This document shows, piece after piece, positions 24,954-32,790 of a stretch of DNA of 64,000 nt. The notes beneath the pieces are model-generated. The model was not told the origin of the DNA, made no database searches, and saw only the letters and a program-made list of their open reading frames with translations. The DNA comes from Pomacea canaliculata (Eukaryota; Mollusca; Gastropoda; Architaenioglossa; Ampullariidae), in NCBI RefSeq assembly GCF_003073045.1, contig NC_037590.1, positions 39,300,751 to 39,364,750 on the forward strand, read 5' to 3'. How positions within the stretch are numbered: position 1 is the stretch's first letter; each line of letters begins with the position of its first letter. The position numbers were made by a program, and so were the translations under genes.

Positions 24954-25831
24954 TGTGCATTAAAAGTCTTAAATTATTTCATTTTGTTTTGTTGATAAAT
25001 AAAACCACACCTCCCCACAGCCCAGACCATCACAGTGCACCGTAAGCTTTTTATCGTGTTTTTCTGTTTTGTCCGTTTTTTCCCTCCCAGCGATCTGCTG
25101 ACACGGGTTCACTCTGATCAGCTCGATTCTGGACGCATACAACATTACTGGTTTCCACATCTTACTGTGGCACCTCAATCTTGAGCCTAGCGATTGTCTT
25201 AATCAATCATGCACGCACGAATGCGCTAAATATACTGAATTCATAAACTCATACACCAAGACATCATCTGAGGGGTAAATAGTGTCCGAATATAGATTTT
25301 TTTATTATCAATGTTGTTAATGAGGTCCTGAGTATATATTACTCTCTCTCCTCTTAGCCATATACCACGGACTGAAACGACGACGGTAAGTAGTGAACAG
25401 TTGACGTACCTATTGTGTATGTGAGTGTGTGTGCTAAAAAATGTGTTCCATAAACTTGTTTACTGTGCTTAACATGATGTGTCGGGATACATTACATCAT
25501 AATGTTATTATTATTCACTATGGTGGCTGCTTAGAATGGGAAGCATTCGAATGCAGGGCCAATGACTTAATCTCTATGTCCAAAATAAAACAATTTACAC
25601 AAAAAATGCATGCTGTATCTTTATTACGCAATACTCTTCTATCCAGTCCACAAATCTCTTTTAAATATACAATTTTATATTCCACGATTAATTTATTGCA
25701 CAACCAACGACATAGTCAATGTTTCTTTCATTCATGTAGTTAAAGCCGATGCCGTAGCATTATCACAGTCTGAAACAGATCTTTAAGTGTTCGTTACTAG
25801 ACGAATAAAGGTCCACTCATGCATTTCAAGT

Positions 25832-27742
25832 TCAGTCCACTTCCTCCACTGTGGGCCCTGCAGAAGACGGCGCAGTCCGGCCTTGTGCAGACGACTGACC
25901 GGCGCCGGCACCGTGAAGTTTGGCCATCATGGGCGAGCATGCTTTCTGCACTTCCTGCATTTTGTGTTCGAACTCTTCTGTGTCCGCCAGCGAGTTGTTG
26001 TCCAGCCACCTCAAGGCCTCGTCGCACGTCTGGCTGACGGCCTCTCTGTCCGCATCACTCAATTTATCGCCGGCGTCGCTGATGGCCTGTCGCACGCTGA
26101 AGACGTATGCCTCCAGGCGGTTGCGCGCCTCCACGCGGTGCCGCTGCTTCTCGTCCTCCTCCCGGAACCGCTCGGCCTCGTTCACCATGCGGTCGATGTC
26201 GTCCTTGCTCAACCGCCCTTTGTCGTTCTTGATGGTGATGTTGGACGACTTGCCCGTACTCTTGTCCTGCGCCGTCACCTTCATGATGCCGTTGGCGTCG
26301 ATGTCGAAGGTCACCTCGATCTGGGGCACGCCGCGCGGGGCGGGAGGGATGCCCGTCAACTCGAAGCGCCCCAACAGGTTATTGTCTTTGGTCATGGCGC
26401 GTTCTCCTTCGTACACCTGGATGGTGACGGCCGGCTGGTTGTCGGCGTACGTAGTGAAGGTCTTGGACGTCTTGGTAGGGATGGTGGTGTTGCGCTCCAC
26501 CAGTCGGGTCATGACGCCCCCAGCCGTCTCGATGCCCAGCGACAGCGGCGCCACGTCCACCAGCAGCACGTCGCGGATGACGTCACTCGTATCGCCGCTC
26601 AGCACGGCGGCCTGCACGGCCGCGCCGTACGCCACGGCCTCATCGGGGTGAATGGACTTGTTCAACTCCTTGCCGCCCATGAATTCCTGTAGCATCTTCT
26701 GGATGCGGGGAATGCGCGTGGACCCGCCCACCAGCACCACCTCGTCGATCTGCCGCTTGTCCAGCTTGGCGTCGCGCAGGGCCTGCTCCACGGGCTCCAG
26801 CGTGTGGCGGAACAGGTCGGCACACAGCTCCTCGAAGCGTGCGCGCGTGATGCGCGTGTAGAAGTCGATGCCCTCGTACAGCGAATCAATCTCTACGCTG
26901 GCCTCTGCGCTGCTTGACAGCGTCCTCTTGGCGCGTTCGCAGGCCGTACGTAGGCGGCGTAGGGCGCGAGGGTTCTTACTGATGTCTTTCTTGTACTTGC
27001 GTTGGAACTCTTGGCACAAGTGCTGCACCATGCGGCTGTCAAAGTCTTCGCCGCCCAGGTGCGTGTCGCCGGCCGTGGCTTTCACCTCGAACAGCGAGCC
27101 CTCGCTGATCTGCAGGATGGACACGTCGAAGGTGCCGCCGCCCAAGTCAAATATGAGGACATTCTTCTCTCCTTTGCCTTTTTTGTCTAGCCCGTAGGCC
27201 AGGGCGGCGGCTGTGGGCTCGTTGATGATGCGCAAAACGTTCAGGCCGGCGATGGCACCGGCGTCTTTCGTCGCTTGTCGCTGGGAGTCGTTGAAGTACG
27301 CCGGAACCGTGATGACGGCGTCTTTGACCCGCTGACCCAGGTATGCTTCTGCCGTCTCTCTCATCTTCACTAGCACCATGGCGCTGATTTCTTCTGGTGC
27401 CATGGTCTTTGTTTCGCCTTTGTACTCCACTTGCACCTTGGGTTTTCCTCCGTCGTTGATGACCTTGAAGGGCCAGTGCTTCATGTCTGCCTGTACGCTG
27501 CTGTCGTCGAACCTTCGACCTATCAATCTCTTGGCGTCAAAGATGGTGTTCTCAGGGTTCATGGCCGCCTGGTTCTTCGCAGCGTCTCCTACCAATCGCT
27601 CAGTGTCCGTGAAAGCCACATAGCTCGGGGTAGTTCTCTGGCCCTGGTCGTTAGCGATGATTTCCACCTGTCCGTGTCGGAACACACCCACACACGAGTA
27701 GGTTGTGCCCAAGTCGATACCAATTGCTGGTGCCTTTGCCAT
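25832..27742 (-). CDS. hsp70: Heat-shock protein 70, left copy (intronless)
   Basis: Intronless 636-codon gene for a cytosolic/nuclear HSP70, the ATP-dependent chaperone that binds exposed hydrophobic segments of client proteins with J-domain and nucleotide-exchange partners. The family signatures are IDLGTTYS (residues 9-16), [14 protein letters not shown] (from ~197) and [14 protein letters not shown] (~336-349). The substrate-binding domain and helical lid follow, and EEVD (633-636) is the tail bound by TPR co-chaperones. The GGMP repeats usual in constitutive HSC70 are absent. Lack of introns, a TATA box and HSEs indicate a stress-inducible gene. The product is identical to that of the right copy; differences are synonymous (for example, Gly-Pro-Thr near the C-terminus is GGGCCCACA here and GGACCCACT there). 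Possible poly(A) signals lie about 140 and 210 nt downstream. Confidence 0.97.
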
Positions 27743-27897
27743 TTGTCTTTCGTTTTGTGGACGAACGTACTCGTACTCTTCTTGGAATAGTAATACCGAG
27801 TCTCTTCTTTTGTACCGCTTTCGACTGTTCTTTTCCTCTCAGGGAAGCTGTAAGTAGCGCTGTGTTTGCACTTGAGCGACGAGTGGGAAACGCGCGC
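27743..27897 (-). promoter_or_regulatory. hsp70: 5' UTR of left hsp70
   Basis: Leader of about 130 nt between the TATA box and ATG 27742. It differs from the right-copy leader at about one visible position (AAGAAGAG here, AAGAGGAG there). It is A-rich near the ATG, as in many heat-shock leaders translated during stress (inference). Confidence 0.6.
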
Positions 27898-30322: not shown

Positions 30323-32233
30323 ATGGCAAAGGCACCAGCAATTGGTATCGACTTGGGCACAACCTACTCGTGTGTGGGTGTGTTCCGACACGGACAGGTG
30401 GAAATCATCGCTAACGACCAGGGCCAGAGAACTACCCCGAGCTATGTGGCTTTCACGGACACTGAGCGATTGGTAGGAGACGCTGCGAAGAACCAGGCGG
30501 CCATGAACCCTGAGAACACCATCTTTGACGCCAAGAGATTGATAGGTCGAAGGTTCGACGACAGCAGCGTACAGGCAGACATGAAGCACTGGCCCTTCAA
30601 GGTCATCAACGACGGAGGAAAACCCAAGGTGCAAGTGGAGTACAAAGGCGAAACAAAGACCATGGCACCAGAAGAAATCAGCGCCATGGTGCTAGTGAAG
30701 ATGAGAGAGACGGCAGAAGCATACCTGGGTCAGCGGGTCAAGGACGCCGTCATCACGGTTCCTGCGTACTTCAACGACTCCCAGCGACAAGCGACGAAAG
30801 ACGCCGGTGCCATCGCCGGCCTGAACGTTTTGCGCATCATCAACGAGCCCACAGCCGCCGCCCTGGCCTACGGGCTAGACAAAAAAGGCAAAGGAGAGAA
30901 GAATGTCCTCATATTTGACTTGGGCGGCGGCACCTTCGACGTGTCCATCCTGCAGATCAGCGAGGGCTCGCTGTTCGAGGTGAAAGCTACGGCCGGCGAC
31001 ACGCACCTGGGCGGCGAAGACTTTGACAGCCGCATGGTGCAGCACTTGTGCCAAGAGTTCCAACGCAAGTACAAGAAAGACATCAGTAAGAACCCTCGCG
31101 CCCTACGCCGCCTACGTACGGCCTGCGAACGCGCCAAGAGGACGCTGTCAAGCAGCGCAGAGGCCAGCGTGGAGATTGATTCGCTGTACGAGGGCATCGA
31201 CTTCTACACGCGCATCACGCGCGCACGCTTCGAGGAGCTGTGTGCCGACCTGTTCCGCCACACGCTGGAGCCCGTGGAGCAGGCCCTGCGCGACGCCAAG
31301 CTGGACAAGCGGCAGATCGACGAGGTGGTGCTGGTGGGCGGGTCCACGCGCATTCCCCGCATCCAGAAGATGCTACAGGAATTCATGGGCGGCAAGGAGT
31401 TGAACAAGTCCATTCACCCCGATGAGGCCGTGGCGTACGGCGCGGCCGTGCAGGCCGCCGTGCTGAGCGGCGATACGAGTGACGTCATCCGCGACGTACT
31501 GCTGGTGGACGTGGCGCCGCTGTCGCTGGGCATCGAGACGGCAGGGGGCGTCATGACCCGACTGGTGGAGCGCAACACCACCATCCCTACCAAGACGTCC
31601 AAGACCTTCACTACGTACGCCGACAACCAGCCGGCCGTCACCATCCAGGTGTACGAAGGAGAACGCGCCATGACCAAAGACAACAACCTGTTGGGCCGCT
31701 TCGAGTTGACGGGCATCCCTCCCGCCCCGCGCGGCGTGCCTCAGATCGAGGTGACCTTCGACATCGACGCCAACGGCATCATGAAGGTGACGGCGCAGGA
31801 CAAGAGTACGGGCAAGTCGTCCAACATCACCATCAAGAACGACAAAGGGCGGTTGAGCAAGGACGACATCGACCGCATGGTGAACGAGGCCGAGCGGTTC
31901 CGGGAGGAGGACGAGAAGCAGCGGCACCGCGTGGAGGCGCGCAACCGCCTGGAGGCGTACGTCTTCAGCGTGCGACAGGCCATCAGCGACGCCGGCGACA
32001 AATTGAGTGATGCGGACAGAGAGGCCGTCAGCCAGACGTGCGACGAGGCCTTGAGGTGGCTGGACAACAACTCGCTGGCGGACACAGAAGAGTTCGAACA
32101 CAAAATGCAGGAAGTGCAGAAAGCATGCTCGCCCATGATGGCCAAACTTCACGGTGCCGGCGCCGGTCAGTCGTCTGCACAAGGCCGGACTGCGCCGTCT
32201 TCTGCAGGACCCACTGTGGAGGAAGTGGACTGA
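30323..32233 (+). CDS. hsp70: Heat-shock protein 70, right copy (intronless)
   Basis: Intronless 636-codon HSP70, head to head with the left copy and encoding the same protein: nucleotide-binding domain (~1-385), interdomain linker with [16 protein letters not shown], substrate-binding domain (~395-510), helical lid and a [14 protein letters not shown] tail ending EEVD. Length is typical of inducible cytosolic HSP70 (about 635-645). Coding GC is far above that of the flanks, especially at third positions, as is common for stress-induced HSP70. Two AATAAA signals follow at 32368-32373 and 32439-32444. About ten synonymous differences from the left copy show in the last ~900 nt and fewer in the first half, a pattern consistent with tract-wise gene conversion. 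Confidence 0.97.
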
Positions 32234-32790
32234 ACTTGAAATGCATGAGTGGACCTTTATTCGTCCAGTAACAAACACTTAAAGATCTGTTTCAGACTGT
32301 GATAATGCTACGGCATCGGCTTTAACTACATGAATGAAAGAAACATTGACTATGTCGTTGGTTGTGCAATAAATTAATCGTGGAATATAAAATTGTATAT
32401 TTAAAAGAGATTTGTGGACTGGATGAAGAGTATTGCGTAATAAAGATACAACAAACATTTTTGTGTAAATTGTTTTTATTCTGGACATAGAGATTGTTAA
32501 GTCATTGACCCTGCATTCGAATGCTTCCCGTACACACACACACACTTAAAAGTACCTCAACTGTTAACTATTTTCCGTTGTAGTTCTGTATATGTGAGAG
32601 ATTAAATAATACACGGGTTCGACAATTAAGAAGAAAAAAAAAAAGTTCAGATGGTAGTTTTATGTCACTGTGTTTGCATTTATGAATTTATATACACATG
32701 CTCCGTAAGCTTAAGGTGCCAACAAGATGTGACAACTAGTTATGACCCATGAGCCAGGATCGAGCTGATCGATGCAAACATTTATCCTAG

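Follow-up and report, generated by a model that had tools for sequence, protein, structure and literature searches.

Two divergent hsp70 genes of the gastropod Pomacea canaliculata encode exactly the same protein from the arms of a palindrome that is nearly identical across the genes and their immediate flanks but worn at its centre and on its outer sides. The pair lies within a window of 64,000 nucleotides (C1:39300751-39364750; NC_037590.1), and the genome searched for related sequences comprised 440,159,624 bases in 24 contigs. The best explanation of the pair, and in our judgment a probable one, is gene conversion acting together with purifying selection; conversion is the part that we infer, from the way in which divergence is distributed along the two arms.

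The two genes are adjacent and stand in mirror orientation, with their start codons 2,580 bases apart. Copy A (25832..27742, minus strand) and copy B (30323..32233, plus strand) are each a single intronless open reading frame of 636 codons. Their coding sequences differ at 13 of 1911 nucleotides, without a single indel, and all 13 differences are synonymous changes at third codon positions, just as the original prediction had described for two head-to-head 636-codon genes. The Nei-Gojobori (NG86) estimates are a nonsynonymous divergence (dN) of 0 and a synonymous divergence (dS) of 0.030, with 10 of 309 fourfold degenerate sites differing; were the differences scattered at random over the coding sites, the chance of 13 out of 13 being silent would be about 6e-9. 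A C-terminal EEVD is a mark of cytosolic HSP70, and both proteins end in GPTVEEVD. Both also match the Pfam family PF00012 at 875 bits over profile positions 1-597 of 599, and the top solved-structure matches by name are Heat shock-related 70 kDa protein 2 and Heat shock 70 kDa protein 1A. Judged by these sequence features the proteins are ordinary cytosolic-type HSP70, and the pair would represent stress-type cytosolic HSP70 genes for which heat induction is predicted.

The near-identical cores of the palindrome contain the 3' flank, the gene and the 5' region. In a BLAST comparison the left core (25538..28246, minus strand) and its right partner (29822..32529, plus strand; aligned as 32529-29822) are 98.75% identical; the 2713 aligned columns contain 25 mismatches and 6 gap openings, and the outer limits of the cores are exactly the 25538..32529 originally proposed for the palindrome. 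On the inner side, high identity ends beside an 81-base length difference, a segment that is extra in the left arm (28247..28327). The spacer halves that follow (28328..28915 and 29258..29821) are still homologous to each other, although decayed as predicted by many substitutions and indels: 45 of 540 aligned bases are substituted in a global alignment, which also contains 25 indels, and BLAST reports 82% identity, counting 38 mismatches and 40 gap openings. The spacer is AT-rich, with a GC content of 0.294. At the very centre is an unpaired loop of 342 bases (28916..29257) that has no partner in the palindrome, and no other copy of it was found in the genome among the 40 of 388 candidates scored.

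An artefact of the assembly might in principle produce such a structure, either because consensus building or Illumina correction copied bases between arms that are truly more different, or because the palindrome itself arose from reads. The assembly was indeed built from PacBio reads (10.1 kb on average) and corrected by Pilon with short Illumina reads, as described in its report (PMC6129957). A fold-back read would, however, give equal arms mirrored about a point, an unworn spacer and flanks that do not differ, whereas the spacer here is worn by 45 substitutions as well as 25 indels, and the flanks beyond the arms are distinct from each other; we reject an artefactual palindrome on these grounds. 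Nor would random errors give exclusively silent differences, or leave the coding arms free of indels against each other. We regard an assembly effect as quite improbable.

The distribution of silent divergence along the arms carries the case for conversion. Differences between the A and B arms amount to 2/316 and 3/185 in the two parts of the 5' region, about 13/444 at coding silent sites and 7/292 in the 3' flank, compared with 45/540 in the spacer. The test set beforehand was whether synonymous and spacer divergence are equal, and they are not: coding silent sites differ from the spacer with a Fisher P of 0.0003, fourfold sites taken by themselves with P = 0.0035, and the core as a whole (25/1237) with P = 2.6e-9. 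The best change point in divergence, 28238/28239, is nine bases away from the 81-base indel and raises the log-likelihood by 18.0, compared with a maximum of 9.2 over 300 permutations. This abrupt change, together with the low divergence of the noncoding 3' flank and of distal upstream DNA, supports conversion within the earlier proposal that conversion or purifying selection keeps the coding arms and promoters alike.

It is formally possible that purifying selection alone is responsible, such that the duplication is old, the protein, codon usage, promoter and untranslated regions (UTRs) are all constrained, and the copies have exchanged nothing. The exclusively silent coding differences do indicate strong constraint on the protein, the GC content at third codon positions (GC3) is high at 0.80, and the promoter region is the least diverged of the noncoding parts. 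However, when copy A is compared with T1, a member of a tandem cluster of hsp70 genes that lies elsewhere on this chromosome and is considered below, 119 of 273 fourfold sites differ (dS about 0.9), and so the silent sites of this hsp70 family are not frozen. Moreover, low divergence extends into the 3' flank and into upstream DNA far from the gene, and it ends abruptly beside the indel; selection on codons or UTRs might slow the rate somewhat, but it is not expected to give such an edge. We consider selection without exchange unlikely, and two comparisons within the tandem cluster, given below, count further against it.

The promoter and 5' UTR regions of copy A (27743..28060, minus strand) and copy B (30007..30322, plus strand) differ by two substitutions and one 2-base indel, and their elements stand at equal distances from the ATG in both arms: a TATA at -162, a CCAAT at -251 and heat-shock-element-like sites at -290, -200 and -195. 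There are thus three such sites per arm within 290 bases of the ATG, two of them overlapping, against a background of 0.46 per kb; each carries one mismatch to the heat-shock-element consensus and none is perfect, and the sites are putative. The stretch 27324-28058, which would favour a gradient from 5' to 3', contains only one substitution, with a 2-base indel near its end (permutation P = 0.012, the stretch having been chosen after the fact), but it spans the promoter, and constraint therefore explains its low divergence equally well.

A further element of the original prediction, that an excess of synonymous changes in the 3' third of the gene reflects conversion tracts of limited length, fares less well. 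The 13 coding differences do rise from 5' to 3' by thirds of the gene (2, 4 and 7), yet the probability depends on the test (binomial P = 0.10, Kolmogorov-Smirnov P = 0.14, one-sided mean position P = 0.036), and the rise is not repeated between the tandem copies T1 and T2, where the counts are 4, 5 and 6; the excess is weakly supported and not convincing. When silent changes are divided into a 5' part (4/462) and a 3' part (18/590), P is 0.016 for a split chosen after the fact. Polarization of the 13 coding differences by T1 gives agreement with B at 7 of 9 codons and with A at 2 of 9, the other 4 being set aside, and we draw no direction from this.

Decay is not confined to the centre of the palindrome. 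Outward, high identity ends at 25538/32529, and about 0.85 kb farther on a collinear remnant resumes. Here 24534..24686 on the left pairs in inverted orientation with 33365..33494 on the right, and substitutions affect 24 of 130 aligned bases (18.5%). Its local alignment score of 45.5, with an A-rich tail excluded, compares with a maximum of 20 in 1000 dinucleotide shuffles; a BLAST comparison had already pointed to this region and the shuffle test is consequently not blind, although the gap in scores is wide. Among flank controls, for which the observed score was 57.5, the left-flank control had a maximum of 36.5 in 300 pieces, but a right-flank control reached 115.5, above the observed value, probably because of a dispersed repeat at about 32850-33050 that has another copy in the window (48419-48566). 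Two further matches (23363-23431/33136-33068 and 23447-23498/32847-32794) are off the palindrome diagonal and were not used as evidence for duplication. The short BLAST matches 25376-25409/32585-32552 and 25116-25182/32770-32707 are roughly on the diagonal and are not counted as evidence either.

With decay on both sides of the arms, the 2.7-kb core sits within an older and larger inverted duplication, and the original duplicated unit was at least about 4.4 kb per arm. The original prediction of an old duplication is thereby strengthened by the collinear remnant, whereas its placing of the decay at the centre was right for the spacer but missed the decay outside the arms. The same remnant bears on the converse possibility, a young inverted duplication with a fast-evolving spacer and no later exchange. 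An AT-rich spacer may mutate quickly; however, there is a gradation of divergence to either side of the core, the outer remnant being substituted at 18.5% compared with 2.4% in the adjoining 3' flank, and an exceptional rate would be needed in the spacer and in the remnant alike. A young origin is in our view the least credible of the explanations, and very improbable.

We therefore return to conversion with purifying selection, for which the following sequence of events may be envisaged. The divergent hsp70 pair would have been generated long ago by an inverted duplication in which each arm measured at least about 4.4 kb. The core, comprising promoter, coding region and proximal 3' flank, would then have been overwritten one or more times, and probably repeatedly, through ectopic gene conversion from one linked inverted copy to the other, and purifying selection would have eliminated amino acid changes. 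Beyond the core, conversion would rarely have arrived and the sequence would have drifted, and the length difference at the inner edge of the core may help to stop conversion tracts. The outcome for the snail would presumably be a double dose of one heat-inducible chaperone.

The tandem cluster indicates that hsp70 copies do recombine in this genome, although unequal crossing over may account for part of it. The cluster is a trio of intronless hsp70 genes about 5 kb apart at C1:13.858-13.870 Mb, namely T1 (L009:5164-7077), T2 (L010:1199-3110) and T3 (L010:6265-8177). T1-T2 and T1-T3 have the same divergence profile as the palindrome pair, with promoter differences of 3/300 and 3/291, coding third-position differences of 15 and 22 per approximately 446 silent sites, and upstream flanks differing at 80/713 and 80/727 (every contrast with the flank has P < 0.0003). 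T2-T3 is the reverse, since its coding third positions (23 per approximately 446) are more diverged than its upstream flank (8/712), which a slower rate cannot achieve and which therefore speaks against selection as the sole agent. The conflict is also apparent from single sites: in the upstream flank 72 sites are peculiar to T1 and 7 to T2 or T3, whereas at coding third positions the corresponding numbers are 7 and 23 (Fisher P about 1e-11; gap columns and one flank site where T1, T2 and T3 all differ were left out). A slower rate would only shrink the counts, so the reversal of their ratio between flank and coding region means that the cluster copies have recombined; again it is not what selection by itself would give. 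In the 3' flank of the cluster, 15 sites are peculiar to T3, 10 to T1 and 2 to T2, a pattern that follows the coding region, and accordingly T2 could be a hybrid generated by unequal crossing over. From its sequence T2 looks like a recombinant of its neighbours. A hybrid T2 nevertheless leaves the low T1-T3 divergence in promoter and coding region unexplained. We considered the tandem conflict as proof of gene conversion and dropped it, unequal crossing over being able to yield the same pattern; only recombination is claimed.

T2 and T3 are frameshifted in the assembly, by gaps of 2 bases and 1 base relative to T1, possibly through decay or through read errors; 23 of the 28 coding changes private to T2 or T3 are at third positions, which is unlike random errors. 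Between the palindrome pair and the tandem cluster, conversion is not evident from the overall identities of 83.1-83.6%, in a comparison that did not search for short tracts. Another hsp70-like sequence, at C1:14.727 Mb (L013:2090-4025), shares 94% identity with the trio across 1811 columns; it is split into several frames and has a longer glycine-rich C-terminus.

Some considerations weigh against conversion in the pair. Conflicting trees cannot be looked for with only two copies from a single genome, so the case has to be built from contrasts in divergence, and these were drawn within one assembly. The promoter, the 5' UTR and the codon usage, with its GC3 of 0.80, may all be constrained. 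The conflict within the tandem cluster could be explained in part by unequal crossing over and is accordingly weaker support for conversion in the pair. Finally, reads belonging to near-identical arms may have been misplaced in a PacBio assembly corrected with Illumina reads.

The core of this biology is already known from other animals; what is new is a gastropod case beside the flies, nematodes and mammals whose hsp70 twins evolve in concert. The snail pair resembles the Drosophila pairs Hsp70Aa/Hsp70Ab and Hsp70Ba/Hsp70Bb, adjacent mirror-image copies that a review describes as near identical within a genome and attributes to ectopic gene conversion (PMC3924832), in keeping with the fly parallel that was originally drawn. 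It differs from them in being a gastropod locus whose start codons are separated by 2,580 bases and whose spacer, although homologous, is worn. In the account given of the hsp70 clusters of Stratiomyidae (Diptera), inverted pairs occur, conversion blocks have a limited reach into the 5' flank, and homogeneity falls with distance from the coding region (PMC3071340); those are multi-gene clusters for which several clones were compared, unlike the single assembly used here. Adjacent inverted heat-shock genes with gene conversion are also reported from Caenorhabditis, in hsp70-7/hsp70-8 and in the hsp16 inverted repeat (PMC3966223). These are nematode genes, and hsp16 belongs to another family. 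The mammalian HSPA1A and HSPA1B genes are not known to form a palindromic pair. Their extreme conservation is put down to gene conversion and purifying selection in a study that drew on population data (PMC5865164). Molluscan HSP70 paralogues are also stated to have undergone conversion (PMC8423806). Among the matches listed for Pomacea HSP70 papers in the open literature, 20 of 64 in one set and 3 of 3 in another, neither the palindrome nor conversion at it is named in titles or abstract openings.

According to a suggestion in the Drosophila review, the birth and death of copies may be restrained by a palindromic orientation (PMC3924832). With a mirror-image pair and a tandem array on one chromosome, the effect of orientation on copy stability could be compared within one genome, that of an invasive and stress-tolerant species. 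The tandem array appears to gain and lose copies, unlike the intact mirror-image pair, and this contrast is the most interesting residue of an analysis whose overall interest is modest. We tentatively suggest, as a possibility rather than an expectation, that conversion beginning close to the open heat-shock promoter, and weakening with distance from it, preserves the mirror pair whole and its copies identical, and that the tandem array 25 Mb away, its copies also recombining, turns over by duplication and decay, two of its three copies being frameshifted in the assembly. If true, the contrast in orientation would support the idea that a palindromic arrangement shelters gene copies from birth and death.

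Both halves of the spacer contain a dispersed repeat (28773..28901 on the left and 29272..29403 on the right) that is present at many places in the genome, judging from the 40 of 388 candidates scored. Copies compared elsewhere have one constant end and another end of variable length, and some 14 bases separate the constant end from the point where the palindrome stops on its inner side. The two spacer copies differ at 6 of 128 bases, whereas copies from eight other places are at most 89% identical; since the spacer copies are nearest to each other, the insertion predates the duplication or was copied with it. The element at about 32850-33050, near the 3' end of the right arm, is a dispersed sequence of about 200 bases with 5153 candidate places in the genome, of which 40 were scored at 91-95% identity; it was not seen in the left outer flank in a genome search using that flank. 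Elsewhere in the window, a direct repeat of about 400 bases (41652-42048 and 46514-46916) is 91% identical between copies 4.9 kb apart. An 817-codon open frame on the minus strand (50327-52780) is serine-rich and contains a direct repeat (51179-51508); it has the look of a large exon belonging to another gene.

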